Source: Pseudomonadota bacterium
Lineage (GTDB): Bacteria; Pseudomonadota; Gammaproteobacteria; Burkholderiales; Burkholderiaceae_C
Assembly (NCBI GenBank): GCA_030538085.1
Contig: JAUNUR010000033.1
Span: 1 to 33,273 of the forward strand
Direction of reading: 5' to 3'
DNA length: 33,273 nt
The translations under genes and the position numbers were made by a program. The notes under the pieces are model-generated. The model had not been told where the DNA came from. It was given only the letters and a program-made list of their open reading frames with translations, and searched no databases. Positions 14,788 through 33,120 of this stretch are shown piece by piece. Position 1 is the first letter of the stretch, and each line of letters begins with the position of its first letter.

Positions 14788-14848
14788 TTGATATTTTCAA
14801 AAATCACGACAGCGCGGGCCATCAGAAAAACCCCCTCACATTCCCTCG

Positions 14849-14940: not shown

Positions 14941-14970
14941 CGGGATACGGCAAATAGGGATGCACATGAC

Positions 14971-15768: not shown

Positions 15769-15825
15769 GCGGCGACGGCAGCCCGTCCCGGATTGCTGGC
15801 ATCGCCGGGTTTCACAATGCGTGAC

Positions 15826-15973
15826 CCTAGAAACGGTAGTTGACCGCTCGCCATCCTTGGACGACCGGCATGAACACTGACTTTCACGGCTTCGATCACG
15901 TTCACCGGTTGGGTGAGCGCGCTATGCACCGGATCACACCGCGCTGGCTCGCTGCCCAAGCCGCGTTTCTAGG
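15826..15973. mobile_element. MITE-like element, copy 1 (148 bp, internally deleted)
   Basis: The element starts CCTAGAAACGGTAGTTGACC and ends CGTTTCTAGG, a 10-bp perfect inverted repeat, flanked by the 5-bp direct repeat GTGAC at 15821-15825 and 15974-15978. It matches the left half of the copies at 17623 and 32802. Its right half is missing: the break falls where both ends share CGTT, suggesting deletion through microhomology. No transposase is encoded. Confidence 0.87.
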
Positions 15974-16248
15974 GTGACAGGCGGTCTGCCCCTCACTTCC
16001 GACCTTCCCAGGAGGAGGGGAATTTTTCCATGAATACGCGCGCGCTACCGCGAGACTCAAAAAACTCAATAGACACCCTACGTCATCGCATCGGCAACGC
16101 CACGGCCGTGGCCAAGGCTGGCGGGTCAAGGCGCTCTCGTGAACTTGTTCCGCCCCCCTTACCGGAACCCTGAACAGGGGGTGTGTAAGTCACCGCTCAG
16201 CCTCGCCCCATTTACTCCTTGCTCGCCCTCAACAACAACCAAGCGAAA
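15974..16248. other. Gene-free stretch before the binding-protein gene
   Basis: I see no supported gene here. A purine-rich AGGAGGAGGGG at 16011-16021 precedes an ATG at 16030 that opens 47 codons to 16173, but the product (MNTRALPRDSKNSID and on) has no recognisable family or composition, and the spacing is long. A small CCCT-GAAC-AGGG hairpin lies near 16168. The stretch may be an untranslated leader. Confidence 0.35.
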
Positions 16249-16254
16249 AAGGAG
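16249..16254 (+). promoter_or_regulatory. Ribosome binding site deciding a TTG start
   Basis: AAGGAG stands 6 bases before TTG at 16261. The earlier in-frame ATG at 16219 has no such site, and the residues it would add contain no signal-peptide features. Confidence 0.8.
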
Positions 16255-16260
16255 ACTACC

Positions 16261-17409
16261 TTGCACACCGCTTCCCCCTTCCAAACACTTTGGCGTCGCC
16301 GCCACGCCATGGGCGCCTTGACCCTGGCCACCTTGGCCCCGCGCTGGGCCTGGGCACAGGCTGGCGGCGACATCGTGATCGGGCAAAGCTGCCCCACCAG
16401 CGGTCCCATGGGCTCGATGTTCAGCGGCGTCATCGCCGGACAGCAGCTTGCGCTCGACGAGTCGGCCAGCCAGGGTGGCGTCGATGGCAGGCGCGTCAAG
16501 ATCGTCACGCTGGATGATGGTTTCGATCCCCAGCGAACCGCCGCCAACGTGCGCACGCTGGCCGAGGAGCAAGGCGCCATCGGCATCTTCGGCGTCGTCG
16601 GCACGGCACAGGCAGCGGGAGCACTCGCTTACCTGACACCCAAGCGGGTGCCACTGATCGCGTCCTACAACGGCACGCCGTCGCTGCGCGGCGAGAAGTT
16701 CCCGAATCACTTCACCACGCAGGCCAGCTATGTCGACGAGATTCTGACCACGGTCCGGCATCAGGTCACGGTCAAGCAGACCAATGTTGGCGTGATTTAC
16801 GCGGACGACGCCTTTGGCAAGGGACTGTTTCCCGCCGTCCAACAGGCCATCGCAAGGGCCGGGGCCACGCTGGTCGGCAGCGAAATCCTGGAGCCCTCTG
16901 GCGCCAACGCAGCCGAAGCCGCCAAGTCCGTCGCCGGCAAGAGCCCCAACGCGATCATCCTGCTCGCCACGGGGCCAGCGGTGGTGCATTGCGTCAAGGC
17001 GCTGCGCGCGGCCAGCGGCGCGCCGGTGTACACCATGTCCTTGTCGGTGGCCGCCGACACCATCCGCGCCCTGGGCGCGGACGGGCGTGGCCTGATGATT
17101 TCGCGCGTCACGCCTTATCCATGGAATCCGCGCACGCCCCTGGCGCGCCGCTTCAACGCGCTGATGGAAAAAGCCAAGAAGCCCGTGGATTACGACCACT
17201 TCATCGGGTACATCAACACACGGATCCTGCTGGAAGGCTTGAAAGCCGCCAACAAGGAATACACGCCGCAAGGCCTGATGCGGGGCATGGAGCGGCTGGG
17301 ACGGCTGGACCTGAACGGCTTCGTGCTGGAGTTCGGCCCCAACAAGCGTGACGGCACGAACTTCGTGGACATCGTCATGCTCTCCGCCACCGGCCGCTAC
17401 GTCCGGTGA
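16261..17409 (+). CDS. ABC-type branched-chain amino acid-like substrate-binding protein (TTG start)
   Basis: This periplasmic type I binding protein of the LivJ/Peripla_BP_6 kind would deliver a small ligand to an ABC importer. The 382-residue precursor starts at TTG 16261. Its signal peptide includes RRRHAMGALTLATLAPRWAWAQA, with cleavage expected after AQA. The mature part opens DIVIGQSCPTSGPMGSMFSG, followed by LDDGFDPQRTAANVRTL, IFGVVGTAQA and a GVIYADDAFGKGLFPAVQQA segment in the second lobe, all typical. No permease or ATPase gene is nearby, so it is an orphan that must use a distant transporter or act as a sensor. Ligand unknown. A paired arm hairpin behind the stop may terminate the transcript. 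Confidence 0.88.
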   Translation: MHTASPFQTLWRRRHAMGALTLATLAPRWAWAQAGGDIVIGQSCPTSGPMGSMFSGVIAGQQLALDESASQGGVDGRRVKIVTLDDGFDPQRTAANVRTLAEEQGAIGIFGVVGTAQAAGALAYLTPKRVPLIASYNGTPSLRGEKFPNHFTTQASYVDEILTTVRHQVTVKQTNVGVIYADDAFGKGLFPAVQQAIARAGATLVGSEILEPSGANAAEAAKSVAGKSPNAIILLATGPAVVHCVKALRAASGAPVYTMSLSVAADTIRALGADGRGLMISRVTPYPWNPRTPLARRFNALMEKAKKPVDYDHFIGYINTRILLEGLKAANKEYTPQGLMRGMERLGRLDLNGFVLEFGPNKRDGTNFVDIVMLSATGRYVR

Positions 17410-17415
17410 CCGACA

Positions 17416-17449
17416 CGCCCGCGCTTCCTCGGTGAGCAAAGCACGGGCG
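17416..17449 (+). terminator. Possible terminator hairpin
   Basis: CGCCCGCGCTT and AAGCACGGGCG pair with one mismatch around a 12-base loop, 7 bases after the binding-protein stop. No T run follows, so termination here is only a possibility. Confidence 0.35.
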
Positions 17450-17455
17450 CTGCTT

Positions 17456-17619
17456 AGAGGCGGTCCTCAAATTCATCGCAGTAAGCGATTGCTCCGGATC
17501 GGGTGTCCTGCAAGGCGCATTACGCAGCCAATAGCTTGTGCTATTGGAAAGGGATGCAACGCCGCAGGGCGCCCGAGACCGGGGACAAGCGCGGCGCGAG
17601 GAGTTTGAGGACAGCCTCT
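17456..17619. mobile_element. Large palindromic element, copy 2 (164 bp)
   Basis: Ends AGAGGCGGTCCTCAAA and TTTGAGGACAGCCTCT are inverted with one mismatch over 16 bp. Inner arms GATCGGGTGTCCTGC and GCAGGGCGCCCGAGACC also pair, and the centre is a perfect hairpin CCAATAGC-TTGT-GCTATTGG (17528-17547). The hairpin midpoint (17537.5) is exactly the midpoint of the block. It is related to copy 1 by design and by its central hairpin, and is followed at once by a MITE-like element. Confidence 0.8.
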
Positions 17620-17622
17620 TAA

Positions 17623-17856
17623 CCTAGAAACGGCAGTTGACCGCTTGCCATCCTTGAGCAACCGGCATGGGCACTGACTTTCGCAGCTTCGATCACACTC
17701 ACCTGTTGGGCGAGCGCGCTATGCACCCGATCACACCGCGCTGGGCGTGCCATGCGGCGTTGCTCGTCCTTGCAGGCACGAGCCTGCCGCGTCCTCGCGC
17801 CTTGCCTGGCACGCCCATCACGGCACGCTCGGGCGCATCCAACTGCCGTTTCTAGG
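17623..17856. mobile_element. MITE-like element, copy 2 (234 bp)
   Basis: Perfect 17-bp terminal inverted repeats CCTAGAAACGGCAGTTG and CAACTGCCGTTTCTAGG are flanked by a 5-bp direct repeat CTTAA (17618-17622 and 17857-17861). Internal hairpin GCAGGC-ACGA-GCCTGC is present. It lacks about 85 bases that copy 3 has in its right half. The right duplication contains the stop codon of the sirtuin gene. No transposase reading frame is seen. Confidence 0.93.
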
Positions 17857-17857
17857 C

Positions 17858-18625
17858 TTAAAAATCAAGCAGTGCCGGCAACGCCCGTGCCGAGGTGCTG
17901 GTCAGCACCGCGTGGGCGATGTCGTCCAGCTCGCTCGGTCGCGGGTTGACGATCACGACCCTGGCTCCAGCCGCGCGGGCCTGGTGCGCCAGGCCCGCGG
18001 CCGGGTACACGGCGCCCGCGGTGCCCACCACCAGCATCACATCGCAACGCTGGGCCGCCTGCTCGGCCGCGGCCATGGCATCCATCGGCAGCATCTCGCC
18101 AAACCACACCACCGCCGGACGCAGCATGTTGCCGCATTGGGCGCAGCGTGGCGGCCGGCCGGGCGTGGCCTGGTCCACGGCGCAACTGTCCAGCGGGCGG
18201 CGCGCCAGCGCACAGGGGTCAAGCCACTGGTCGTCGAAGATATTGCCGTGCAGCGCCAGCACATCGGGGCTGCCGGCTTTCTGGTGCAGGCCGTCGACGT
18301 TCTGCGTGGCCACCGTCAACCGTCCGGGGTGGCGCTGCTGAAACGCCGCCACCGCCAGATGGCCCGCGTTGGGCTGCACGTCGACCATGTTCACGCGCCG
18401 CTCGGCGTACCAGTCCCACACGCGCTGCGGGTCGCGGCGGAAAGCTTCCTCGGTGGCCAGATCTTCGGCGCGGAAGTTGGCCCACAACCCGGTCTGCGCG
18501 TCACGGAAGGTGGGCACGCCCGATTCGGCACTGACGCCGGCGCCCGTCAGCATGGCGATGTGGGCCGCATCTTGCAGCCATTGGCGCACTTCCTGCGCGC
18601 CATGGATATCCAGATCAATGCTCAT
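17858..18625 (-). CDS. NAD-dependent protein deacylase (SIR2 family, CobB/class III type)
   Basis: Sirtuins remove acyl groups from lysines using NAD; bacterial CobB-type enzymes act on acetyl-CoA synthetase among others. This 255-residue protein has the NAD pocket motifs TGAGVSAESGVPTFRD (27-42) and TQNVDGLHQKAG (107-118), catalytic H126 in LHGN, and Y73/R76 in DWYAERR, the pair that marks desuccinylase-type (class III) members. Cysteines C138, C148, C161 and C164 could bind zinc, though the first pair is not a CxxC. Its TAA stop lies within the target duplication of a MITE-like element, so the 3' end has been rebuilt by insertion. It could act on Acs from this window, but that is inference. 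Confidence 0.9.
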   Translation of the reverse strand: MSIDLDIHGAQEVRQWLQDAAHIAMLTGAGVSAESGVPTFRDAQTGLWANFRAEDLATEEAFRRDPQRVWDWYAERRVNMVDVQPNAGHLAVAAFQQRHPGRLTVATQNVDGLHQKAGSPDVLALHGNIFDDQWLDPCALARRPLDSCAVDQATPGRPPRCAQCGNMLRPAVVWFGEMLPMDAMAAAEQAAQRCDVMLVVGTAGAVYPAAGLAHQARAAGARVVIVNPRPSELDDIAHAVLTSTSARALPALLDF

Positions 18626-18689
18626 GCCGGCAGCTTAACAAGGGTTGGTTCCTCGCGGATGGGCGGCCCAGCGGCCAGGACATCACTCC

Positions 18690-18820
18690 AATTCCAGATC
18701 AAAGTTGCCATATCTCGTCATTGCGGCGCAAGCCGCAATCCAGACGGCGTGTGCGGAAAAACATGGATCCCGGCCTGCGCTGGGATGACGGTGATTGACG
18801 CCTTGAAGTGGAAATGGAAT
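18690..18820. repeat. 130-bp mosaic paired-hairpin repeat, copy B (inverted)
   Basis: This is the inverted counterpart of 2275-2403, sharing both outer flanks and the linker CGGCGTGTGCGGAAAAA. Its left arm (TCATTGCGGCGCAAGCCGCA) is of the same type as the 92-bp paired-hairpin elements, whereas copy A has CATTCCGGCGAAGGGAATCC there. The block lies between the sirtuin start and the TctC-type gene end. Confidence 0.85.
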
Positions 18821-18826
18821 AACGAC

Positions 18827-19801
18827 TCAATCCAGAACGCGGATATTCGCGGCATTCACGACGCGGCGGTACTTACCGGCCTCGGCCCGGATGTATGCGG
18901 GGAACATGCCCGGCAAGTCGCTCGAAATCTGGTAGCCCGCCTGGATCAGCTTGGCCTTGACCTCGCGCTCCTGCAAGATGGCGTGAATGGAATCGGCCAG
19001 CACCTTCACCACGGCGTCGGGTGTGTTGGCGGGAACGAAATACCCCGACCAGACGTTCATGTCGAAGTTGCGGAAATCCTTGTCCTCCGACAGCGAAGGT
19101 ACGTTCGGCAGCATGAACAGGCGCTTGCGCTCGGTCACGCCGTAGGCGCGCAAGGTGCCCGCCTTCAAAAAGCTGTCGACCGAGGCCACGCTGAGAAACG
19201 CCAGGTCGATCGTGCCGCCGCGCAAGTCGTTCATCAGCGGGCCAGCGCCCTTGTAGGGCACGTGCACCATCTTGGCGCCCGTTTCCAGGTTGACGAGTTC
19301 GCCCATCAGGTGCTGCGGCGTGCCGATGCCGGGCGTGCCGTAGCTGAGCTTGCCGGGGTTGGCCCGCGCATAGGCCAGCAGCTCGGTAAGGCTTTTGGCG
19401 GGCAGATCGGCGCGCCCGGTCAGCACCAGCGGCAAGGTGCCGATCATGGCGACCGGCTTCAGATCCTTCATCCCGTCGTACTTGATGGCCGGGTTGGTGA
19501 TCTTGGCGATCGCCACCTCGCTGCCCGAACCCGCCAGCAGCGTATAGCCATCGGCGGGCGCGGCCACTACCTTGGCCGCGCCGATGGTGCCGCTGGCACC
19601 GGCGACGTTCTCGACCACCACCGGCTGCTTCAGCCTTTCGGTCAGCTTCGGCCCCAGCGTGCGGGCCACCATGTCGGCCACGCCGCCGGCCGCATAGGGC
19701 ACGACGATGGTGATGGGCTTGGTGGGGTACGCGGCGGATTGCGCGAACACGGGCGCGGCGGCAAACAGTGCCAACGCAGCAAGAGAATGGCGACGACGCA
19801 T
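18827..19801 (-). CDS. Tripartite tricarboxylate transporter-type substrate-binding protein (Bug/TctC family)
   Basis: Bug proteins are periplasmic solute receptors, vastly expanded in Burkholderiales, usually without adjacent TctAB membrane genes, as here. The 324-residue precursor has a signal peptide (MRRRHSLAALALFAAAPVFA, cleavage near QSA) and the family blocks YPTKPITIVVPYAAGGVADM, VVVENVAGASGTIGA, PADGYTLLAGSGSEVAI, YGTPGIGTPQHLMGEL and VPYKGAGPLMNDLRGGTIDL. GGAGG lies 6 bases before the ATG. The last codons lie only a few bases from the 130-bp repeat. The ligand, usually a carboxylic acid, cannot be inferred. No regulator is adjacent. Confidence 0.92.
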   Translation of the reverse strand: MRRRHSLAALALFAAAPVFAQSAAYPTKPITIVVPYAAGGVADMVARTLGPKLTERLKQPVVVENVAGASGTIGAAKVVAAPADGYTLLAGSGSEVAIAKITNPAIKYDGMKDLKPVAMIGTLPLVLTGRADLPAKSLTELLAYARANPGKLSYGTPGIGTPQHLMGELVNLETGAKMVHVPYKGAGPLMNDLRGGTIDLAFLSVASVDSFLKAGTLRAYGVTERKRLFMLPNVPSLSEDKDFRNFDMNVWSGYFVPANTPDAVVKVLADSIHAILQEREVKAKLIQAGYQISSDLPGMFPAYIRAEAGKYRRVVNAANIRVLD

Positions 19802-19912
19802 GGATAGCCTCCAAAAAGTAGATCAAAAGTGGGGCCTGTCAGTGTAGCCAGCAAACGTGATCATCGCGATGTTTTCGCGGTCCACGCCAAGCCACCGCCC
19901 CCCTTCAACCGT

Positions 19913-20665
19913 CTACTGGCTGCTTACCCGCTGGCGCCGCGCCTCGTACAGGCACACGCCACTGGCCACGCTGACGTTCAGGCTTTCCACCGCGCCCATC
20001 ATGGGAATGCGCACCAGGGTGTCGCAGGTCTTGCGCGTCAACTGGCGCATGCCCGGCCCCTCGGCGCCCAGTACCAGGGCAGTGGGCAGCGCCAGGTCGA
20101 TGTCGTACAGCGTCTGCTCGGCATCGTCCGAGGTGCCCACCACCCAGATGCCGCGCTCTTTCAACTCATTCAACGTGCGCGCCAGGTTAGTGACCATGAA
20201 GTACGGCACCGTTTCGGCCGCGCCGCTGGCCACCTTGGCCACGGTGGCGTTGATGCCTGCGGCGTGATCCTTGGGCGCTATCACGGCGTGCGCGCCCGCG
20301 CCGTCGGCCACGCGCAGGCACGCGCCCAGGTTGTGCGGGTCGGTCACGCCGTCCAGCACCAGCAACAGCGGCACGGCGCCTTCGCTTTGCAGGTCGTCCA
20401 GCAACTCGTCCAGCGTGCGCACGCCTTCCAGCGCCTGCACGCGCGCCACCACGCCCTGGTGGCCGGCGCTGCCGCAAAGCTTCGCAAGGCGCTGTGCATC
20501 GGCCTCGATCACGCGCACGCCGGCCTCGGCGGCGCGGTTCAGGAACTGCTTCATGCGCGCATCGCGCCGTGTCGGATCGACATACACCTCGACGATGGAC
20601 GCGGGCGCCGTCTTCAGGCGCACGCCAACGGCGTGAAAGCCGAACAGGACTTTGGGGGCGGACAT
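19913..20665 (-). CDS. rlmB: 23S rRNA (guanosine-2'-O-)-methyltransferase
   Basis: RlmB methylates the 2'-O of G2251 in the 23S rRNA peptidyl-transferase loop. The 250-residue protein has an N-terminal substrate-binding domain starting [19 protein letters not shown], then the SPOUT knot with motif 1 [20 protein letters not shown] from residue 101, motif 2 [15 protein letters not shown] and motif 3 [20 protein letters not shown]. Length is typical (E. coli 243). The start is ATG at 20665 with a TAATCGCCCC stretch before it and no strong ribosome site. In related genomes it often follows rnr; here the upstream side is a repeat and a divergent cardiolipin synthase gene. Confidence 0.94.
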
Positions 20666-20687
20666 GGGGCGATTATCCGCGCTTGTG

Positions 20688-20775
20688 TTTTGATAGTGGC
20701 TGGCGATTGCCAGCGCTTGATTTCAAGAGAAATAGACCTGAAGCCATTGAATGACGGGCGCAAGCAGCTATATCA
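20688..20775. repeat. TTGATAG-type dispersed repeat, copy 2
   Basis: TTTTGATAGTGGCTGGCGAT opens and GGGCGCAAGCAGCTATATCA closes the block, which fills most of the gap between divergent rlmB and the cardiolipin synthase gene. The ends TTGATAG and CAGCTAT(A)TCA are partly inverted. Compare 14521-14612 (opposite orientation). Confidence 0.55.
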
Positions 20776-20813
20776 GCCATAGCAATGCACACACCCCATA
20801 GACTCAACCCCCG

Positions 20814-22268
20814 ATGATGAGCCTGCCCGCCCTCACCCCGCTGGAGCACGCCGCCTTCGTGGCCGCGGGCCTGCTCACCTACATCGTCATCACGCGCGTG
20901 CGGCGCCAGCGGCGCCACCCCTATGCGGCGCTGGCCTGGGTGATGGGCATCGCGGCCTTTCCCTACCTGGGCCTACCTGCCTTTCTGATCTTCGGCACGC
21001 GCAAGGTGGTGCGCCCGGCCACGCAGCGTCAGCCCCTGCCCGCCGGGCCGTGGGCGGCGCTGGCGCCGGACTGGGCCACGCGCCTGCTGGCGGCGCTGGG
21101 GGCGGCCGGCGCGCGGCCACAGGCGGCGGTGCGGTTCCAGGCCGAGGGCGGGCACGCGCTGCAGGCGGTGCGCGCCGTCATCGGATCAGCGCGACACACG
21201 CTGGACCTGTGCACCTACGTGCTGGGCGACGACGAGGTAGGCGCGCTGATCGCCGCCGCGCTGGCCGAGCGCGCGCACGCCGGCGTGCGCGTGCGCCTGC
21301 TGGTCGACAGCATCGGCAGCCTGAAAAGCGCGCACAGCCACGACGATCTGCTGAAACGCGCCGGCGTGCACACACGCCTGTTCATGCCCGCGCTGGGCAG
21401 CCCCTGGCGTGGCCGCGTGAACCTGCGCAACCACCGCAAGCTGCTGATCGCCGACGGCGCGCGCGTGTGGTCGGGCGGGCGCAACCTGGCCAACGAATAC
21501 TTCATCGGCCGCGCGGGCGAGCCGCCCTGGCTGGACCTGAGCTTCACCGCCGACGGCGCCCTGGCCGCGCAGGCGCAGGCGCTGTTCGACGGCGACTGGC
21601 GCATCGCGCGCGGCGCCCGCCGCGCACTCAAGCTGGGCTACGCCGAGCGGCTGGCGCGCCTGGACGCCGAGGACGATGCCGCCCTGGCCGAGGCCGAGAG
21701 CCTGCCAGCCGAGTTGATGCCCACCGCCGGCGCAGCCCTGGCGCAGTGGGTGCCCAGCGGGCCGGACTTTCACGAGGACATCCTGCACGCGCTGCTGGTG
21801 TCGGCCGCCTTCCACGCCGAGCAGCGCCTGCTGCTGGCCACGCCCTACTTCGTGCCGGACGAAGGCCTGCAGGAAGCACTGGTGCTGGCCGCCAAGCGCG
21901 GCCTGCAGATCACGCTGCTGCTGCCCAGGCAATCCAACCACCGGCTGGCCGACTGGGCACGCGGGCGCGCGGTGCGCGAGCTGGCAGAGGCCGGCGTGAA
22001 CGTGCGTCTGCTGCCTGTCATGCTGCACGCCAAGGCCGTGGTGGTGGACGACGTGCTGGCGCTGTGCGGCTCGGCCAACCTGGACAGCCGCAGCCTGTTC
22101 ATCAACTACGAGGCCATGGCCGCGTTCTATGGCCGCACCGAGATCGACTGGCTGGCCGACTGGATCACGCGCACCGCCGCCGATGGCGAGCCCGCGTCAA
22201 GCCAGCCGCCAAGCTGGCTGCGCGACATCGGCGAAGGCATCGTGGCGACGGTGGCGTTCCAGCTTTGA
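20814..22268 (+). CDS. Cardiolipin synthase (phospholipase D superfamily)
   Basis: Cls enzymes join phosphatidylglycerol units into cardiolipin at the inner membrane. This 484-residue protein has two N-terminal hydrophobic segments (residues 11-27 and about 39-60, AALAWVMGIAAFPYLGLPAF) and two PLD domains. The first HKD motif is NHRKLLIADGARVWSGGRN (about 205-223), the second HAKAVVVDDVLALCGSANLD (about 404-423) followed by SRSLFINYE. This order matches ClsA. Two ATGs are possible (20814, 20817) and neither has a clear ribosome site. Alternative: a broader PLD-type transphosphatidylase, but the membrane segments and motif spacing favour Cls. Confidence 0.9.
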   Translation: MMSLPALTPLEHAAFVAAGLLTYIVITRVRRQRRHPYAALAWVMGIAAFPYLGLPAFLIFGTRKVVRPATQRQPLPAGPWAALAPDWATRLLAALGAAGARPQAAVRFQAEGGHALQAVRAVIGSARHTLDLCTYVLGDDEVGALIAAALAERAHAGVRVRLLVDSIGSLKSAHSHDDLLKRAGVHTRLFMPALGSPWRGRVNLRNHRKLLIADGARVWSGGRNLANEYFIGRAGEPPWLDLSFTADGALAAQAQALFDGDWRIARGARRALKLGYAERLARLDAEDDAALAEAESLPAELMPTAGAALAQWVPSGPDFHEDILHALLVSAAFHAEQRLLLATPYFVPDEGLQEALVLAAKRGLQITLLLPRQSNHRLADWARGRAVRELAEAGVNVRLLPVMLHAKAVVVDDVLALCGSANLDSRSLFINYEAMAAFYGRTEIDWLADWITRTAADGEPASSQPPSWLRDIGEGIVATVAFQL

Positions 22269-22281
22269 TGCCGTTTTGCGT

Positions 22282-22335
22282 GCCATGACGATGACAAATG
22301 ACCGCGGCTGGCGCCGCATGACAAATGACAAATGT
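22282..22335. repeat. ATGACAA heptad repeat block
   Basis: Units ATGACGATGACAAATGACC, GCGGCTGGCGCCGC and ATGACAAATGACAAATG follow each other. The same words recur at 22482-22574 and at 11322-11348. No gene is present. Confidence 0.55.
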
Positions 22336-22353
22336 CTTCTCTGTCACCCCTCG

Positions 22354-22446
22354 TCATTGCGGCGAAAGCCGCAATCCATGGCGGCGCCACCTTGACACGG
22401 CATTGACCTGCGGACACCGAGTGGATTGCGGCTTTCGCCGCAATGA
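22354..22446. repeat. Paired-hairpin (BIME-like) element, copy 2
   Basis: Same design as 14849-14940: arms TCATTGCGGCGAAAGCCGCA and its inverted partner, with the centre CTTGACACGGCATTGACCTG. The compensating change in both arms (AAAG / CTTT where copy 1 has AAGG / CCTT) keeps each arm a perfect hairpin and the two arms perfectly inverted. Confidence 0.9.
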
Positions 22447-22481
22447 CGGAAAAGGGTGAATGCGGTGCGCACTTTGTGATG

Positions 22482-22574
22482 ATGAATGACCGCGGCTGGC
22501 GCGCATGACAAATGACGAATGCGCCATTTGTCATTGAAGCGCAGCGAAGTCATTCGTCATTCGTCATTTGTCAT
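22482..22574. repeat. Inverted ATGACAAATGACGAATG repeat
   Basis: ATGACAAATGACGAATG at 22505-22521 is repeated as a perfect inverted copy at 22558-22574, with a further inverted partial unit CATTTGTCATTG in the loop. It ends 24 bases before the chosen srkA start, and the reading frame upstream of that start runs through it. Confidence 0.7.
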
Positions 22575-22598
22575 CCCAAAAGAAAGCACGCGGCGACA

Positions 22599-23657: not shown

Positions 23658-23923
23658 CCGGCACACCCAGCGCCGGAATACCCACGGAAACCCCACGAGA
23701 TCGTTCCGTGCGCTGACAGGCAACTGGCGCGAGGAGCAGGCGCGCCACCGGCGACGAACACCTCACTGCGCAGCCAAGCCCGCCCTCACAGGCAGACCAC
23801 CTCTTTTGGCTGCTTCATTTGTGCCGTGCCCCGCTCTTCTGGTTGTCTGGCGAATCACCGCGCCCAACAGCAAGCCACGGTTCGCGGACAAGTCCTTGAA
23901 AGACGCAGCTCTGAAAAGCCAAT

Positions 23924-24709: not shown

Positions 24710-25258
24710 TCAGCCACGCCGGCGCGCGGCCATCTCCCGCCCGATCACGGCCAGCGCTTCGGCATCGAAGCGTCCTTGCGCTGCTGGATAAACGACTTTC
24801 TCTTCCAGCGGAATATGACGCTCATAGGCACCGATGAAGTCGCGCGCCAGGCCGCGGTCGGCATCGCTGATGACGGGCGCCGGGTCGGCATCGCGCCAGG
24901 CCAGCAGCACGGCACGCAGCCGCTGCCACAGCGCATGCATCCGCACGTGATCGGCCTGCAGCTCGGCCACGGCGGCGCGCACGCGGGCATCGGGATGATC
25001 CATCAAGGGCGGAAACACGTGGCGCTCCTCGTCCTCGTGGTGGTGCGGGCCGGCGATGTCGAAGTAGCGCAGCACGTCGCCTGCGGCGCTGCGTGAATCG
25101 GCGTCATGCCCATTCGCGTCCACGTGCTCGATGATGCGCTGCAACAGCGCCAGGCTGCGCTGCACGCGCTCGTGGCAGGCTTGCAGCATCTCGAAGGGTT
25201 GATCGAAGCCCACGCTGGGAGAGGCAAAACCCGGCAGGTTGACGGTTGACGAGGTCAT
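24710..25258 (-). CDS. Hemerythrin-like (HHE) domain protein
   Basis: Hemerythrin-like domains bind a di-iron site in a four-helix bundle and sense or carry oxygen, NO or iron. This 182-residue soluble protein has candidate ligands in order: H29 in LQACHERVQRS, H72-H74 and E75 in PHHHEDEERHVFPPL, H104 and H108 in DHVRMH, and H148 with E152/E153 in YERHIPLEEKVVYP. The start is the ATG at 25258; the frame stays open far upstream only because it is antisense to tamA. It is divergent from tamA with an 87-base gap. Cellular role cannot be narrowed down. Confidence 0.88.
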   Translation of the reverse strand: MTSSTVNLPGFASPSVGFDQPFEMLQACHERVQRSLALLQRIIEHVDANGHDADSRSAAGDVLRYFDIAGPHHHEDEERHVFPPLMDHPDARVRAAVAELQADHVRMHALWQRLRAVLLAWRDADPAPVISDADRGLARDFIGAYERHIPLEEKVVYPAAQGRFDAEALAVIGREMAARRRG

Positions 25259-25345
25259 GGCCCGCGATTGTGCGCCGCCGCGTTCACCCACACCAGCCGG
25301 CAGGTCATGCGCCGCGGGGCGGCCGCTCCACACAACAAGGACAAG

Positions 25346-27325
25346 ATGCGGCCTTGTCCGACAAAATCGGCCATTAAACTCACCCGGGTGACCCGCGCAT
25401 CTACCACTTCCGTTGTACTCAAGGCTGGCGACGCCCTTCCCCGCTCGCCGCGTGCCACCCTTTTGCTGCCTCTGTTGCTGGCGTTGCACGGGTGTGCCTT
25501 GCTGAGCGCCGACAAGACCGATGAAGCCGCCGCCACGCAAGATGCGCCGCCGCGCGACACTACTTCGACCGGCCAGGTGGGCCGCGCCGGCGACGCACCC
25601 GCCGTCAGCGCCTTCGACATTCGCGTGGAAGCCGAGGACAAGGACTTGCGCGAACTCATCGAGCGTCACAACGAATTGCAGCGCTACCGCGCGGTGACCG
25701 ATCTGGACGCCGCTGAATTCGCCCGCCTGATGGCCCTGGTCGAGCGCGACGTGCGCAACCTGCTGGGCACCGAGGGCTACTTCAGCCCCAACGTGAGCGT
25801 ACGGCGCGAGGGTGCGCCGGATGCACGGCCCACGGTGGTGATTGCCGTGTCGCCCGGACAGGCCACGACGGTGGAAAACGTGGACATCGCTTTCGAAGGC
25901 GACATCGCCACCTCGGCCGACCCCGCCGCCGCCGCGCAGCGCGGCGACATCGTGGGCGGCTGGGGGCTGGACGAAGGCCGCCGCTTCACGCAAGACCGCT
26001 GGTCCAGCGCCAAGACGGGCGCGCTGCGCGGCCTGGTGGAGCGCCGCTATCCCCGGGGCCGCATCGCTTACAGCCTGGCCGATGTCGATGCGGCGCGGGG
26101 GCGGGCCAAGCTCGGCGTGCGGCTGGATTCCGGCCCGCTGTTCCGCCTGGGCCCGGCCACCGTGAAAGGCGCCAAGCGCTACCCGCCCGAGCTGGCCGAA
26201 CGGCTGTCCTGGCTCAAGCCGGGCGACATCTACGACCAGAAGAAACTGGTCGACGCCCAGCAGCGCCTGGCCGGCAGCGGCTACTACGACTCGGCCTACA
26301 TCAGCATCGACCCCGAGGGCGACCCCAACGCCACGCCGGTGACCTACACCGTCACCGAGGCCGAACGCCACAAGGTGCAGCTGGGCGTGGGCTACAGCAC
26401 CGACGGCGGCCCGCGCATATCGCTGGAGCACCGCGACAACACCGCGCTGGGCACCCGCTGGCGCGCCGATACCAAGCTGCATTTCGACCTGAAGGCTCCC
26501 CTGCTGCAGACCGAATGGACCTCGCTGCCGCGCGCCAGCGGCTGGCGCTGGGCGGTGCTGGCGCGCTACATGCGGCAGGACGACGGCGCACTGACCACCA
26601 CGTCGAAAACGCTGCGCCTGGGCACCCTGCGCACCGAGGAAAAGTACGACCGCAACTTCTACCTGCAGTACGACCACGCCAGCGTCACCGGCTCGGGCAA
26701 CCGCGACATCCCCGACGCGCTGCTGGGCGACGGCGCCGCCGTGAGCGCCAACTACGCGTGGACGGGCCGCTATTTCGACAGCCTGCCCGTGCCCTCGCGC
26801 GGCTACGGGCTCAATACCGACATCGGCGTGGGCATGACCACGGTGGGCGAGCGCAAACCCTTCCTGCGCCTGTTCGGCCGGGCGCTGGGCATCGTGCCCC
26901 TGGGCAGCGGCGGCAGCCGGCTGGCGCTGCGCACCGAGGCCGGCGCCATCCTGGCGGCCAAGCAGGCGCGCCTGCCCGCCACCTACATGTTCCGCACCGG
27001 CGGCGACACCACGGTGCGCGGCTACGGCTACCGGCGCATTGGCATTCCGTTCGACGACCTGGTGGGCCCTGGCCGCTACATGGCGGTGGGCAGTGTCGAG
27101 TGGCAGCGCCCGATCATGCGGGAGCGCTTTCCCGGCCTGCTGGAGCACACGCTGTTCGTCGATGTCGGCGGCGTCGCCAACGAGGTCAACCAGCTGCGCG
27201 CGCACTGGGGCGTGGGCACCGGCATCCGGCTGATCACGCCCGTGGGGCCAATGCAGCTGGACCTGGCCTATGGCCTGAAATCCAAGGCCATCCGGCTGCA
27301 CATGAACGTGGGCTTCGTGTTCTGA
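25346..27325 (+). CDS. tamA: TamA, Omp85-family outer-membrane barrel of the translocation and assembly module
   Basis: TamA is a POTRA-barrel protein that works with TamB in outer-membrane biogenesis. Using the ATG at 25346 (AAGGA 4 bases before it), the protein has 659 residues; a GTG at 25388 is an alternative. A hydrophobic segment LLLPLLLALHGC ends in a lipobox-like cysteine at residue 50. POTRA-like regions span roughly 70-340 (for example FRLGPATVKGAKRYPPELAE and LKPGDIYDQKKLVDAQQRLA), and the barrel fills the rest, with the conserved TGGDTTVRGYGYRRIG and a terminal phenylalanine in HMNVGFVF. Its TGA overlaps the tamB ATG, so the two are translationally coupled. Confidence 0.92.
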   Translation: MRPCPTKSAIKLTRVTRASTTSVVLKAGDALPRSPRATLLLPLLLALHGCALLSADKTDEAAATQDAPPRDTTSTGQVGRAGDAPAVSAFDIRVEAEDKDLRELIERHNELQRYRAVTDLDAAEFARLMALVERDVRNLLGTEGYFSPNVSVRREGAPDARPTVVIAVSPGQATTVENVDIAFEGDIATSADPAAAAQRGDIVGGWGLDEGRRFTQDRWSSAKTGALRGLVERRYPRGRIAYSLADVDAARGRAKLGVRLDSGPLFRLGPATVKGAKRYPPELAERLSWLKPGDIYDQKKLVDAQQRLAGSGYYDSAYISIDPEGDPNATPVTYTVTEAERHKVQLGVGYSTDGGPRISLEHRDNTALGTRWRADTKLHFDLKAPLLQTEWTSLPRASGWRWAVLARYMRQDDGALTTTSKTLRLGTLRTEEKYDRNFYLQYDHASVTGSGNRDIPDALLGDGAAVSANYAWTGRYFDSLPVPSRGYGLNTDIGVGMTTVGERKPFLRLFGRALGIVPLGSGGSRLALRTEAGAILAAKQARLPATYMFRTGGDTTVRGYGYRRIGIPFDDLVGPGRYMAVGSVEWQRPIMRERFPGLLEHTLFVDVGGVANEVNQLRAHWGVGTGIRLITPVGPMQLDLAYGLKSKAIRLHMNVGFVF

Positions 27326-30300
27326 TGAGCCATCGCGAACCGCGCGGCGCGGCCCCCCACACATCGAACTCCATGACCACTGGCGCTGACAGCAGCGTGG
27401 CCGAAGGCTCGCTCGACTCTCCAGCCCCCACCATGCCGCCGCGCCGCCGCCGCGTCTGGCGCCTGCTGGGCTGGCTGCTGGTGGCGCTGCTGGCGCTGCT
27501 GCTGACGACCATGGGTGGCGGCTGGATCTGGACCGGCTCCGACGGATCGCTGGCCGCCGCGCTGCGCTGGGCCGGGGCCGAGCGTCCGCTGGTCACCGAG
27601 GAAGTCACCGGCACCGTGCGCGGCGGCGGCAAGGTGCGGCGCTTGGTATGGGACGAAGGCGGCCTGCGCGTGGAAGTGCATAACGCCGAAATCCTGTGGA
27701 CGCCCGCCGCCCTGCTCTCGCGCACACTGCAAATCGACACGCTGAGCGCCAGCCGCATCGTCATCGACGACCAGCGCCCCAAGTCCGAGGCCGAAGCCGG
27801 CCCGCCGCCCAAGGCGTTCTCGCTGCCGCTGAACATCCGCGTGAAAGCCTTGCGCGCGGGCGAACTGCGCTGGGCCGGCCCGCCGCCGTACACGCTGCAG
27901 GACGTGGCCGGCCGCTTTGCCTACGATGGCCGCCAGCACCAGCTGGAGCTGGACAGCGCACGCATCGAGGGCGGCAGCTATCAGGCCCGCGCCATCGTCA
28001 AGGCGGACGAGCCGATCCAGGTCGACGTGGCCCTGGCCGGTGCGCTGGCCGCCCCGGTGCCCGGCGCGCAGGCGCCGGTGCCGCTGACGCTGCAGGCGCG
28101 CCTGCTCGGCCCGCTGACCGACATGCGGGCGCAGCTCGACCTGCTGGCCGCGGCACCCGCGCCAGGTGCGTCGGCGCCCGCCATTCCGGCGCTGCCGCCA
28201 CCAGCCGGGTTCGGTGGCGAAGCCGCGCCCGCGCCAGCTCCCGCCGCATCGACCGCCGCGCCCGCGTTGCCTACCGCGCCCGCCGGCGGCGACACCCCGG
28301 AAGCCCGCGTCACCGCCCGCATCACGCCCTGGGCCACGCAGCCGCTGCCCGAAGCCCATGCCCGCGTGCGCGCGCTCGACGTCGGCGCCATCTGGGCCGA
28401 AGCACCGCGCACGCACCTGACGGGCCGGCTCGACATCACGCCGCTGCCCGAGGGCGGCGCGCCCGGCTGGGCCGTCGATGCCGACCTGGTCAACACCGCC
28501 GCCGGCCCGTGGGACCAGCGCCAGTTGCCGCTCGATCAGTTACTGGCCGACCTCACCTGGCAAGGCGGCACCGCCACCGTGCGCGCGCTCAAGGCACGGG
28601 TGGGCGGCGGCAGCGTCGAATCCACCGGCCGCTGGATCAGCCCGCCCGCCACGCAGCCCACCGCCACCGCTCCCACGCCTGCAGACTCCGCGCAGGTGGC
28701 TGGCCCCACCGCGGCACCGGCGCCCACGCCCACCGTGTCGGGCGCCTGGCAGATCGACACCCGCATCGCCGGCGTCAACCCGGCGCGCCTGCACACGCAG
28801 CTGGCGGCCTTTCCGCTGGATGGCATGGCCCAGGTGACGGGCGAAGGCGCCGACATCGGCTTCGATGTCGCGCTGCAAGCGCAGCCCACGCGCGCCGCTG
28901 CCCCCGCGCGGCGCGGCGAATCGGTCAGCGAGGCACGGGCGCGCGAGCTGCACGCGCTGCGCCTGCGCGACGCCAGCGCCACTGGACGCTGGGCAGGCGG
29001 CCTGCTCAGCCTGAGCGCCCTGCGCGTGCGCACCGACGACGCGCAACTGGCCGGCAGCGCCCAGGTGCGCCCCGACGCCCCCGGCGGCCTGGCCGACCTG
29101 ACGCTCACCGCCCCCGGCGCCAGCGCCGTGGTCAAGGGCGAACTGCAACCCACCACCGGCGCCGGCACCCTGCGCGCCAACGTGCAGGACGCCGCCCGCC
29201 TGCTGGCCTGGGCGCAAAAACTGCCCGGCGCCGGCAACGCGCTGGCCGGTGCACGGGCGCGCGGCAGTGCCACGCTGGACGGCGGCTGGCGCGGCGGCTG
29301 GCGCGACCCCGGCGTGCAGGCACGGCTGCACGCCCCTTCGCTTGACTGGACACCGCCCGGAAACAACGCCACGCCGCTGCAGGCACGTGGGCTGGAAGCC
29401 TCGGTCAACGGCCGCCTGGCACAAGCCCAGATCGCCGCCAGCGGTCGCGTGGCGCAGGGCGAGCGCCAGCTGGATCTGCGCCTGGCCGCCAGCGGCGGGC
29501 GCACCACGCCCAACGCGGCGCTGGCGGCATCGGCCTGGCGCTTCAACCTGGGGCAGCTGCAAGCCAGCGTGCGCGACCCGGCCCTGGGCAACGGCCCGTG
29601 GCAACTGGCCAGCCGCGGCGCGGTGCCGCTCAGCTGGTCGCCAGCGCAAGGCGGGCAACTGGAAGCCGGCGCGGGCGAACTCACCATCACCTCGCCCGCG
29701 CCCACATCACAGGCGCAGGTGGCCTGGGGGCCGGTGCGCTGGCGCCAGGGCGCCCTCACCACCACGGGCCGCCTCACCGGTCTGCCGCTGCAGTGGGCCG
29801 AGCGCGTGGCTGGCCCGCAGCTGCAACAAGCCGGACTCACGGGCAACATCGTCTTCAACGGCGACTGGGACGCCACGCTGGGCCAGCAGTTGCGCGTCAC
29901 CGCCAACCTGGTGCGCGCCAGCGGCGACGTGACGGTGCTGGCCACCGACGCCAGCACCGGCGTGCAGTCGCGCGTGGCCGCCGGCCTGCGCGATGCGCGC
30001 CTGACGCTGGGCAACGATGGCAACGCGCTCAAGCTGGCGCTGGTGTGGGACAGCGAGCGCGCCGGCACCGTCAACGGCCAGTTGCGCACCGAACTGGCCG
30101 CCACGCGCGGCGATGATGGCGCCACCCGCTGGTCATGGCCCGAAAGCGCGCCGCTGCAGGGGCAGGTACAGGCACGGCTGCCGCAAATCGCCGCCTGGTC
30201 GGTGCTGGCGCCACCCGGCTGGCGGCTGCGCGGTTCGCTGGCCGCCGATGCGCGCGTGGCCGGCACGCGCGCCGCGCCGCTGGTCAACGGCACCGTCACG

Positions 30301-31551
30301 GCCGACGACGTGGCGCTGCGCTCCATCGTCGATGGCCTGCAATTCGAGGGCGGGCGCCTGCGCGCGCGGCTGGACGGCACGCGCCTGCTGATTGACGACT
30401 TCACCCTGCAAGGCGCTGGCGACAAGGGCAGCGGCGGCCAGTTGCGCGCCAGCGGCGAGGCCGGCCTGGTGGATGGCCGCGCGCAGGCGCGCCTGAACGC
30501 CACGCTGGAGCGGCTGCGCGCCAGCATCCGCGACGACCGGCAAGTCACCGTCTCGGGCAACGTGCAGGCAGCGCTGGATGGGCGCGCCCTGCGCACCGAT
30601 GGCAGCCTGCGCGTGGACCGCGCCCTGATCCTGCTGCCCGACGAGAACCGCCCCACGCTGGGCGACGACGTGATCGTGCGCGGGACGGACGGCAAGGTGA
30701 TGGCCGGCAAGGACGCCCCTGGCTCCGTGGCCCGCCCCACCAGCGCCGCCGGCAGGCAGGATGCGCAACGGCAGGCACGCGACGATGCCGCCCGCGCCAA
30801 GGCCGACGCCCAGGCCCGAGCGGGCGAAGCCGAGCCGCTGGTGGCCAACGTCAACGTGAAAGTCGACCTGGGCGAGGACTTCCGCCTGCAGGGCATGGGC
30901 ATCGACACGCGGCTGGCTGGCGCGTTGACACTGAGCGCCAACGGCCCGCTGACCGAGCCGCCCCGCCTGGTTGGCCGCGTGCGCACCGAGGGCGGCAACT
31001 TCCGCGCCTATGGACAGCAGCTCATCATCCAGCGCGGCTTCATCAACTTCAGCGGCCAGGCCAGCAACCCCACGCTCGACATCGTGGCCCTGCGTCCCAA
31101 CTACACCAGCGACCAGCGGGTGGGCGTGCAGGTCATGGGCACCGCGCTGCTACCGCGCGTGCGCCTGTATTCCGAACCCGCCCTGCCCGACAACCAGACC
31201 CTGGCCTGGCTGCTGCTGGGTCGCCCCGCGCCCAACACCGGGGCTGAGGCGGCCATGCTGCAATCAGCCGCGCTGGCCTTGCTGGGCGGGCGCGAAGGCA
31301 GCGGACTGGCGGCCAATTTCGGCCTGGACGAGTTGAGCTTTTCGGGCGGTGGCGATGGCGACGTGAGCAATGCCAGCGTCACGCTGGGCAAGCGCCTGTC
31401 GGACCGACTGTACGCCGCCTACGAGCACAGCCTGGCCGGCACCGGCGGTACGCTGATGATCTTCTACGAGCTGTCGCGCCGCTGGACGCTGCGCGGCCAG
31501 GCCAGCGAGAACTCGGCCATTGATCTGATCTACCGGCTGTCGTTCGACTGA
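27325..31551 (+). CDS. tamB: TamB, inner-membrane-anchored translocation and assembly module protein
   Basis: TamB is a long AsmA-like beta-taco protein that spans the periplasm from an inner-membrane helix to TamA, with proposed roles in autotransporter insertion and phospholipid transport. The 1408-residue protein starts in a TGATG overlap with tamA (MSHREPRGAAPHTSNS); MTTGADSS at 27373 is an alternative start. One membrane helix lies near residues 50-72 (LLGWLLVALLALLLTTMGGG). A Pro/Ala-rich insert occurs at about 280-325. The C-terminal TamB/DUF490 domain ends in LYAAYEHSLAGTGGTLMIFY and LRGQASENSAIDLIYRLSFD, typical of the family. Very high GC makes all other frames open here; those are shadows. 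Confidence 0.93.
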   Translation: MSHREPRGAAPHTSNSMTTGADSSVAEGSLDSPAPTMPPRRRRVWRLLGWLLVALLALLLTTMGGGWIWTGSDGSLAAALRWAGAERPLVTEEVTGTVRGGGKVRRLVWDEGGLRVEVHNAEILWTPAALLSRTLQIDTLSASRIVIDDQRPKSEAEAGPPPKAFSLPLNIRVKALRAGELRWAGPPPYTLQDVAGRFAYDGRQHQLELDSARIEGGSYQARAIVKADEPIQVDVALAGALAAPVPGAQAPVPLTLQARLLGPLTDMRAQLDLLAAAPAPGASAPAIPALPPPAGFGGEAAPAPAPAASTAAPALPTAPAGGDTPEARVTARITPWATQPLPEAHARVRALDVGAIWAEAPRTHLTGRLDITPLPEGGAPGWAVDADLVNTAAGPWDQRQLPLDQLLADLTWQGGTATVRALKARVGGGSVESTGRWISPPATQPTATAPTPADSAQVAGPTAAPAPTPTVSGAWQIDTRIAGVNPARLHTQLAAFPLDGMAQVTGEGADIGFDVALQAQPTRAAAPARRGESVSEARARELHALRLRDASATGRWAGGLLSLSALRVRTDDAQLAGSAQVRPDAPGGLADLTLTAPGASAVVKGELQPTTGAGTLRANVQDAARLLAWAQKLPGAGNALAGARARGSATLDGGWRGGWRDPGVQARLHAPSLDWTPPGNNATPLQARGLEASVNGRLAQAQIAASGRVAQGERQLDLRLAASGGRTTPNAALAASAWRFNLGQLQASVRDPALGNGPWQLASRGAVPLSWSPAQGGQLEAGAGELTITSPAPTSQAQVAWGPVRWRQGALTTTGRLTGLPLQWAERVAGPQLQQAGLTGNIVFNGDWDATLGQQLRVTANLVRASGDVTVLATDASTGVQSRVAAGLRDARLTLGNDGNALKLALVWDSERAGTVNGQLRTELAATRGDDGATRWSWPESAPLQGQVQARLPQIAAWSVLAPPGWRLRGSLAADARVAGTRAAPLVNGTVTADDVALRSIVDGLQFEGGRLRARLDGTRLLIDDFTLQGAGDKGSGGQLRASGEAGLVDGRAQARLNATLERLRASIRDDRQVTVSGNVQAALDGRALRTDGSLRVDRALILLPDENRPTLGDDVIVRGTDGKVMAGKDAPGSVARPTSAAGRQDAQRQARDDAARAKADAQARAGEAEPLVANVNVKVDLGEDFRLQGMGIDTRLAGALTLSANGPLTEPPRLVGRVRTEGGNFRAYGQQLIIQRGFINFSGQASNPTLDIVALRPNYTSDQRVGVQVMGTALLPRVRLYSEPALPDNQTLAWLLLGRPAPNTGAEAAMLQSAALALLGGREGSGLAANFGLDELSFSGGGDGDVSNASVTLGKRLSDRLYAAYEHSLAGTGGTLMIFYELSRRWTLRGQASENSAIDLIYRLSFD

Positions 31552-31607
31552 CCAGACTCACCCCACGGCGGGAGTAGCCCATCAGCGGCGCCCCTTGCTT
31601 TTTCTCA

Positions 31608-31695
31608 TCATTGCCGCGAAAGCCGCCATCCATGCGGCACCGCCTTGACACGGCGTTGACCGAAGGACGCATGGATGACGACTTTCGCCACAATC
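31608..31695. repeat. Paired-hairpin (BIME-like) element, copy 3, degenerate
   Basis: TCATTGCCGCGAAAGCCGCC, centre CCTTGACACGGCGTTGACC and a right arm GACTTTCGCCACAATCG follow the design of copies 1 and 2 but with several mismatches in both arms, so this copy appears to be decaying. It lies in the 253-base gap between tamB and the phosphodiesterase gene. Confidence 0.75.
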
Positions 31696-31804
31696 GCGGG
31701 TACAACTCGCCAGGCCTTCCCAGAGAAATCCTTCACGGGCACCCGGCTCAGCGCCGCCGCCCACCCTGTTCAACCGCGCGCCGCCGGGTTAAAACCACGA
31801 TTTC

Positions 31805-32635
31805 ATGCTGATCGCCCACATCACCGACCCCCATATCGGGTTGGACCCGCAAGCACTTGACGGCCGCGTGCAGCCCGCCGACGCGCTGCGTGCCGCGCTG
31901 GCCCACGTGCGCGCGCTGCAGCCGGCACCCGACGTGCTGCTGCTGAGCGGCGATCTGGCCGACGCCGGACGTGAGCAGGACTACGCCGTGCTGCGCGATC
32001 TGCTCGACACCGCGCTGCCCGCGGCCACCGCTGGCGGGCCGCGCGTGCTGGCGGTGCCCGGCAATCACGACCGGCCCCACACCGCGCGCCACGTGCTGGG
32101 TGATGCCCACATGCCCGTGGCCGCCGATGCGCCCGACGGCCTGCACTGCCTGCACGTCATGCATGGCGGCCTGCATTTCATCGGGCTGGACACCGTGCTG
32201 CCAGGGCAGCCGCACGGCGCGCTGGGGCAAGCGCAACTTGACTGGCTCGCGCGCACGCTGGCACGGTGTGCCGGTCAGCCCGTGCTGATCTTCATGCACC
32301 ATCCGCCGCTGTTGACCGGCATCGACACCATGGACGCCTACGGCCTGCTGCAAGGCCGTGCCGAACTGGCCGAACGAGTCGCCGCGCACGGAAACGTGCA
32401 ACTGATCGCCGCCGGCCACATGCACCGGCCCATCCTGGGCGCGCTGGGCGGCGCGCCGGTGGTCGTGGCGCCCTCCACCTCGCACCAGATCGAGTTGGAC
32501 CTGCGCCCGGGCGCACCGCTGGCGGTGCGGCTGGAGCCACCCATGATCGGCCTGTACCGCTGGACGGCGCAAGACGGCATGACCTGCCATTTCAGCCACG
32601 TGCGGACGTTCGAGGGGCCGTTCCCGATCTATTGA
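31805..32635 (+). CDS. Metallophosphoesterase, class III cyclic-nucleotide phosphodiesterase / GpdQ-like
   Basis: This 276-residue soluble protein belongs to the calcineurin-like phosphoesterases. The five metal-binding blocks are in order: D8 and H10 in ITDPHIG, D50 in LLSGDLAD, N87 and H88 in VPGNHDR, H165 in FMHHPP, and H205 and H207 in AAGHMHRP. This arrangement and length match CpdA (3',5'-cAMP hydrolysis) and GpdQ (glycerophosphodiester hydrolysis); sequence alone does not choose between them. The ATG at 31805 has no strong ribosome site. A truncating change is not seen; the C-terminal HVRTFEGPFPIY is intact. It stands alone, followed by repeats. Confidence 0.88.
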   Translation: MLIAHITDPHIGLDPQALDGRVQPADALRAALAHVRALQPAPDVLLLSGDLADAGREQDYAVLRDLLDTALPAATAGGPRVLAVPGNHDRPHTARHVLGDAHMPVAADAPDGLHCLHVMHGGLHFIGLDTVLPGQPHGALGQAQLDWLARTLARCAGQPVLIFMHHPPLLTGIDTMDAYGLLQGRAELAERVAAHGNVQLIAAGHMHRPILGALGGAPVVVAPSTSHQIELDLRPGAPLAVRLEPPMIGLYRWTAQDGMTCHFSHVRTFEGPFPIY

Positions 32636-32801
32636 AAATTTCGTCATTCTCAAGCTCTTGCCCGCGGACAGCGGCTTGCCACCCAGCGTGCTGATTGGCC
32701 ATGCAGCCGGAACAGCCGGACGCGCAGAGAGCGCGAAAGAAGCAGGTGCTCTGGCTTGTGAGCGCTGAACTCATCCGCCCCACGGTCGGGCGGCTCATCA
32801 C
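32636..32801. other. Gene-poor stretch before MITE copy 3
   Basis: No supported gene is seen. A short plus-strand frame from ATG 32701 (MQPEQPDAQRARKKQVLWLV) runs into the MITE-like element and stops inside it at 32853. It has no ribosome site and no recognised family, so it might be a remnant of a gene interrupted by the element, or chance. Confidence 0.35.
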
Positions 32802-33120
32802 CCTAGAAACGGCAGTTGACCGCTCGCCATCCTTGGGCAATCGGCATGAGCACTGACTTTCACAGCTTCGATCACATTCACCTGTGGGGTGAGCGCGCCA
32901 TGCACCCGATCGCACCGCGCTGGCTCGCTGCCCAAGCCGCGTTGCTCGTCCTTGCAGGCACGAGCCTGCCGCGTCCTCTCCCTTGCAGGGCGCGCATCGG
33001 TCAGAGCCCGATGCCGCTCGTGCCGTCCAAAGCTGCACAGGCAGCTTTGGAGCCGCGGCACTTGCCCTTGCCTGGCACGCCCATCACGGCACGCTCGGGC
33101 GCATCCAACTACCGTTTCTA
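32802..33120. mobile_element. MITE-like element, copy 3 (319 bp, longest)
   Basis: The left end CCTAGAAACGGCAGTTGACC is intact; the right end reads CAACTACCGTTTCTA and then runs into the 155-bp repeat unit that begins TATTGG, so the last GG is lost. This copy carries an extra inner block with a perfect hairpin CAAAGCTGC-ACAG-GCAGCTTTG (33028-33049) that copies 1 and 2 lack. The left flank is ATCAC, but no matching duplication stands directly at the damaged right end. Confidence 0.85.

Follow-up and report, generated by a model that had tools for sequence, protein, structure and literature searches.

A family of miniature elements with IS1380-type ends and a strand-biased hairpin body in Gammaproteobacteria

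Insertion sequences (ISs) of the IS1380 family (PF13701) include IS1247, ISPme1 and ISEcp1; an excerpt of one account gives IS1247 as 1672 bp long, with inverted repeats of 16/13 and a direct repeat of 5 (PMC3281130). ERIC, NEMIS/Correia and RUP are small, palindromic, mobile repeats that lie between genes and whose transcripts are able to fold. According to part of another account, NEMIS and ERIC RNA affect mRNA, and RUP, whose target is TA, is thought to be mobilised by an IS with matching ends (PMC2229807). Here, we describe a family of short repeats that resembles both kinds of system. It is represented three times in a stretch of 33,273 bases from a member of Burkholderiaceae_C (assembly GCA_030538085.1, contig JAUNUR010000033.1); the whole of this stretch, which is a complete contig, is called the window. 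The repeats are very probably miniature inverted-repeat transposable elements (MITEs) that are moved in trans by IS1380-like transposases and that carry, as a separate component, a folded body constrained on one strand.

The likeness to the IS1380 family lies in ends that start with CCTA, in autonomous partners of ~1.6-1.7 kb, and in 5-bp duplications of the target. Unlike members of that family, the repeats are free of genes and, outside the terminal repeat, of IS sequence, and the transposases of their partners form a subgroup below the NF033539 cut-off. From ERIC, NEMIS and RUP, the repeats are set apart by description: their ends and targets are different, and they have a putative IS1380-like helper, an NTNAN target and a length of 234 bp. 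The first-pass annotation of the window knew of no named element with these ends; the open-access literature (ISfinder not included) likewise yielded neither a name nor a description of the element, and CCTAGAAACGG was met there only in papers on DUX4.

Copies, target duplications and a candidate helper

The first-pass annotation had reported three copies (148, 234 and 319 bp) with common ends, two of them flanked by 5-bp duplications that are exact and differ from each other. Copies 1 and 2 prove complete, and their sizes, positions and duplications (GTGAC and CTTAA) are all as reported; the terminal inverted repeat of copy 2 is perfect over 17 bp. Copy 3 fits less well, as it is apparently part of a composite and its right end (33106-33122) lacks the terminal GG. 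In the window, the 17-bp end occurs 5 times at no more than 3 mismatches, versus 0.01 expected. The proposal that the sizes form a deletion series holds for the 148-bp form, which is an internal deletion, as is a 76-bp form. However, 234 bp is the length conserved across genera, and the copy-3 form has an insertion of ~80-90 bp relative to it.

The genome from which the window comes is a draft assembly of 3.5 Mb in 134 contigs. A search of it with the 17-bp end, a check suggested by the annotation, gave 204 matches at no more than 2 mismatches (104 forward and 100 reverse), whereas the reversed pattern gave 1 and 0. Loci were fetched around part of these matches only, and each left end was paired with the right end having the fewest mismatches inside 1.3 kb. 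This census contains 51 complete elements bounded on both sides by ends of this family (module A), 76 to 322 bp long and mostly 234-237 bp. The flanking duplication is exact in 33 of the 51, has one mismatch in 12, and has two or more in 6; re-dealing the right flanks among the elements gave a mean of 4.6 exact duplications and a maximum of 13 (10,000 rounds). All 33 exact duplications fit NTNAN, the most frequent being TTGAA (10). The elements are short, lack a transposase gene, and have terminal inverted repeats and a target duplication of fixed length, as is usual for MITEs, and the annotation's idea of a non-autonomous family moved in trans is supported. Insertion ends a reading frame of at least 90 codons in 17 of the 51 cases, versus 143 of 807 NTNAN sites in the window (p 0.009), a control that mixes coding and non-coding sites. 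Several contigs start or stop inside a copy, and thus the repeat breaks assemblies.

As the annotation had also said, no transposase is apparent in the window. In tblastn with the cognate transposase, no hit improves on E 0.35; of the ten proteins from the window that were compared with Pfam (other open reading frames were unscanned), nine belong to ordinary non-transposase families and one is unmatched. A full-length element with a transposase between matching ends, which the annotation had proposed to look for, is present outside this genome, on the Polaromonas sp. P1-6 plasmid CP087967 (locus L195). This IS1380-like element of 1630 bp has CCTAGAAACGGCAGTT as its right end, is flanked on either side by TTAAA, and lies 357 bp away from a copy of the MITE. 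Within the genus, PF13701 proteins are found in 6 of 29 genomes, and the one in genome G014 sits between ends CCTAAAAACCGCAGTTAC and CCTAAAAATCTCAGTTGC. Relatives of the G014 transposase occur in 22 of 299 genomes of the family at E 1e-3 (80 loci kept from genome contigs), within elements of ~1.64 kb that have such ends. Both ends were located for 58 distinct autonomous elements; 34 have exact duplications, every one of which fits NTNAN. In addition, 7 of the 17 distinct 16-nt MITE ends are matched exactly by IS ends. From these common ends, targets and duplications, we infer that an IS1380-like transposase moves the MITEs. Such a DDE transposase would cut at the CCTAnnnnCnGCAGTT ends, insert at NTNAN, and duplicate 5 bp. 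The IS1380-like subgroup itself (L072 and L083 in G014; L195), with transposases of ~515-540 residues and CCTA...GCAGTT ends, is widespread in Betaproteobacteria.

The 234-bp element was matched in 23 of 60 relatives and in 6 of 32 genera (up to 13 candidates were scored per genome). Copies are also carried by plasmids, namely the Polaromonas plasmid and a Caballeronia plasmid typed as conjugative. The two ends of a copy usually vary in concert (AGAAACGG, AAAAACGG, AGATTCGG, AAATCCGG, CGAAACGG, AGAAACCG and others). An empty site, a further check that had been suggested, exists in exact form for a distant member of the family: GAGAATTAAAGTATG in genome G368 corresponds to GAGAATTAAA and TTAAAGTATG, separated by 236 bp, in G622 (L342 vs L345). 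In G622 the element lies at TTAAA between two genes, G368 has a single TTAAA, and two more genomes of that genus lack the element at the site. For the window copies, no such site was found: of 29 genus genomes searched for the gene that separates copies 1 and 2, just one (G008) had a close match, and its flanks cannot be aligned. For the Caballeronia copy, no related record spanning the site was found. Phage records gave no match to the element, and viral contigs gave two exact ends.

The folded body and its strand asymmetry

The body of the element is a conserved hairpin in its own right and no IS remnant. The fold was analysed in an alignment of 28 copies from 15 genomes and 2 plasmids (234 columns, few gaps); 25 of 30 loci have both ends, and 24 of these were taken together with L195 and three copies of the own genome. 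The consensus predicted for the minus strand of window copy 2 has 66 pairs, 40 of which are changed on both sides, versus 16.9 in shuffled alignments and 10-12 in slid registers. Of the 1848 cells, 97.4% are paired, versus 86.7% (standard deviation 0.4) for shuffles and 28-42% for slid registers, and double-change cells number 163, versus 41.7 and 17-30. The shuffle control ignores relatedness, whereas the slid-register control retains it. Pairs within the terminal inverted repeat are expected to covary for the transposase regardless, but the arm (helix 2) has changes on both sides in 24 of its 28 pairs.

If a palindrome were maintained as double-stranded DNA, G-T and A-C mismatches would be expected to be equally common. 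In the arm, read without gaps in the register set by the palindrome and with no choice of pairs, there are 638 Watson-Crick, 142 G-U, 3 A-C and 57 other cells. This ratio of 142:3 argues that the constraint is on one strand. Five columns of the arm wobble as a rule (107 cells), and the remainder contains 35 G-U versus 3 A-C; for pairs predicted on both strands, the counts are 25 versus 6. Relative to shuffles, copy 2 folds 9.2 standard deviations lower on its minus strand and 6.0 lower on its plus strand, and the more stable strand is the same one in 28 of 28 aligned copies. Both covariation above controls and strand-specific wobbles, by which structured RNAs are recognised, are thus present. 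Rfam yielded no match in the window, only a chance-level hit (E 0.46) below the gathering score.

A covariance model of the arm (R1), run with rough E-values on genomes of the class, matched 52 of 369 genomes and 41 of 272 genera, counts that include weak hits and another kind of MITE. In thirteen loci, each from a separate genome, CCTA/CCTG ends, short hairpin and arm are all present, and the sequences are very different. These 13, out of 30, were used for a class-wide strand test in which orientation was set from the anatomy rather than from the fold. They contain 57 G-U versus 2 A-C, and in all 13 it is the same strand that folds more stably; in the eight of these that the model had matched on the opposite strand, the counts are 34 versus 1. 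The loci set aside were L301 (the own genome), L306 (apparently the same site as L305), L310 (other ends), L322 (not analysed), six of less than 3 kb (L317, L318, L319, L323, L327 and L328), and seven of the other MITE kind (L320, L321, L324, L325, L326, L329 and L330).

Five of the last group (L320, L321, L325, L326 and L329) form a MITE family of 264-266 bp with GGGCCTGTT ends of the GGGCCTGTTAACAC type and TA on both sides. They hold, whole or in part, the hairpin tip GCCAGGCAAGGCGCGAGGA ... GACGAGCAACGCCGC, with alignment scores of 31-50 that exceed 200 simple shuffles for each element. Some similarity is expected of elements found by R1, and the evidence lies in the long exact blocks, which suggest that the hairpin tip moved between types of transposon.

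Composite elements and other features of the window

Copy 3 has the appearance of a composite's left-hand portion, joined to a second repeat. In this and several other copies, the right end without GG runs straight into repeat B (ends CCTATTGATATTTTC and CCTATTGAGAG); the repeat beside copy 3 is 92% identical to 14785-14940. The outer duplication of copy 3 is not seen because the contig, C76, stops first. Module B can run on into a third module, C (end CCTATTGAGCAACCC). There are 24 rows that join ends of unlike modules, some being inner parts or alternatives of a single composite; their outer duplications are exact in 8, have one mismatch in 5, and have two or more in 11. The exact ones belong to A-B (L022, L015, L055, L215 and L242) and B-C (L209, L216 and L261) composites, while the triple A-B-C composite L044 (CTAAG/CTAAA) is among those with one mismatch. 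Exact duplications at the outer ends of composites indicate that unlike ends are usable together. At the junction, CTA is common to both ends, which suggests that the modules were fused through deletion between neighbouring elements.

Unlike ends are also used together by the TMos of Paracoccus, which an excerpt of PMC3281130 describes as modules driven by a single IS1380-family copy and bounded by one regular end and another end. In contrast, the composites here hold no IS and consist of MITE modules joined end to end. TIMEs, as described in part of PMC4133298, are Tn3-derived miniature elements from which mosaic non-autonomous transposons, with duplications of 5 or 6 bp, are built. The assembly of miniature elements into such mosaics is a likeness; however, TIMEs as given there have 38-bp Tn3 repeats and capture genes, whereas IS1380-type ends and fusion with one another mark the elements here.

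Module B is itself a second MITE-like family, with ends CCTATTGA and a palindromic CGTCATTGCGGCGAAGGCCGCAATCCA body (Table 1; L196-L225). It is near full length at 40 places in the own genome among the matches listed, and some copies (L218, L254) have exact NTNAN duplications. Module C, ~75 bp long, is fused to B in L198, L205, L207, L208, L209, L216 and L224.

Table 1. Coordinates of the elements and adjoining features in the window
Feature	Position	Strand	Remark
Module B, second window copy	14784-14951	.	end CCTATTGATATTTTC, left flank TTGAA, degenerate right end
Target duplication GTGAC, left flank of copy 1	15821-15825	.	
Copy 1, 148 bp	15826-15973	.	internally deleted, without the apical part of the hairpin
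Target duplication GTGAC, right flank of copy 1	15974-15978	.	
Target duplication CTTAA, left flank of copy 2	17618-17622	.	
Copy 2, full-length 234-bp element	17623-17856	minus	best-folding strand, bearing the G-U pairs
Short hairpin of copy 2	17695-17717	minus	alignment columns 140-162
Long hairpin arm of copy 2	17721-17838	minus	alignment columns 19-136, source of covariance model R1
Target duplication CTTAA, right flank of copy 2	17857-17861	.	overlaps the stop codon of the SIR2-family gene
SIR2-family gene adjoining copy 2	17858-18625	minus	
Copy 3, element A part of a composite	32802-33120	.	right end without GG
Module B fused to copy 3	33118-33273	.	shares bases CTA, cut by contig end

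The window also contains other repeats. One, ending in GAGGAGTTTGAGGACAGCC, lies directly left of copy 2 (17456-17616) and recurs in the genome, also at L006, L016 and L202. Another palindromic family is represented by a long inverted pair, 2275-2409 and 18683-18820, complementary at 94% and 89% in two blocks. Short repeats around GATGACAAATGACCGCGGCTGGCGCC are present at 11320-11348, 22289-22317 and 22477-22505.

Rival readings and meaning of the family

The body is best explained as a folded module of ~234 bp, separate from and not derived from the IS, whose two arms coevolve, and the molecule under constraint as the minus strand of window copy 2. Most likely, this strand is read as RNA from flanking or nearby promoters and would act on local transcripts, by analogy with ERIC and NEMIS; the element could then be regarded as a mobile hairpin cassette. 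A wider proposal, to which we give an even chance, is that the bodies belong to a hitherto undescribed class of structured RNA of Gammaproteobacteria that spreads as the body of MITEs, with the tip (GGCAAGGCGCGA ... GCAACGCCGC) in at least two unrelated transposition systems, the RNA as the selected unit, and composites that move as one. Since the tip is carried both by IS1380-type NTNAN elements and by GGGCCTGTTAACAC TA-flanked elements, it would be the RNA, and not the transposon, that selection keeps.

Several observations weigh against this picture of helper and folded RNA. The cells counted for covariation are not independent in phylogenetic terms, and RNA is not proven because single-stranded DNA also tolerates G-T pairs. 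In 18 of 23 tandem gene contexts, the folded strand runs antisense to the genes (10 of 13 in the own genome, where genes were called by a codon-usage heuristic, and 8 of 10 class-wide; two-sided binomial about 0.01), and a simple role in mRNA is thus not favoured. The sense orientation may be harmful, the folded strand may come from a promoter of its own, or it may act as single-stranded DNA. As for the helper, transposase P0001 scores 59.3 bits with PF13701 (cut-off 34.7), but only 141.1 bits, the best of seven families listed, with the NCBI IS1380 equivalog NF033539 (cut-off 180); it is therefore called IS1380-like. PF13701 and the cognate transposase were both sought without success in the own genome, a draft of 134 contigs, in which controls of the PF13701 search were positive in 3 of 14. 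Finally, among the 369 class genomes, 52 have the element, 7 the helper and 2 both, which is about chance.

Quasi-palindromes can be perfected through template switching, and a transposase needs matching terminal repeats, which would make helix 1 covary without any RNA. The repeats might then be ordinary IS1380-mobilised MITEs whose palindrome is kept by mutation, from arm to arm, and whose fold has no function. Such correction should erase mismatches and treat both strands alike, yet wobbles persist in fixed columns; the asymmetry (142:3 in the arm, 57:2 class-wide) already strains this explanation, which we consider improbable. The selected molecule could instead be single-stranded DNA, exposed in replication, conjugation or transposition. 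DNA hairpins also tolerate G-T wobbles, the antisense bias of the folded strand would fit, and copies are present on two plasmids, one of them typed as conjugative. However, the 13 scored copies in genome G055 lie on both strands with no half-chromosome pattern (a weak test, judged by eye with the origin unmapped), and single-strand transposition is not known for IS1380; we hold this explanation to be possible, though on balance unlikely.

A helper other than an IS1380-like one, that is, another host transposase with similar recognition of ends, would account for a genome with many near-identical copies and no detected IS1380 transposase; the scan of that genome was for the IS1380 type only. 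Nevertheless, the ends and the NTNAN target are shared exactly with autonomous IS1380-like elements, one of which neighbours a MITE on the Polaromonas plasmid, making a different helper very improbable. Least probable of all is that the element encodes a small protein. The plus strand of copy 2 has a frame of 62 codons that ends in the TAG of the terminal repeat, free of internal stops in the large majority of the 28 copies and with an ATG start in 18. Yet there is no excess of change at third positions (entropy by codon position 0.675, 0.747 and 0.704), and class-wide copies differ in which frame is least interrupted, several having no open frame. On these grounds, a small protein was rejected as the main constraint. 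Sites like integron attC were dropped on inspection by eye only.

Mobility of this type is familiar; what is new, as far as is visible, is that a strand-specific fold recurs across the class and is found with two kinds of ends. Bacterial MITEs are usually taken to be decayed fragments of ISs. Here, the length and the fold of the body are conserved across many families, while the sequence and the terminal repeats change in step under a strand-specific constraint. The family thus allows the idea of a transposable structured RNA, or single-strand hairpin, to be put to the test.

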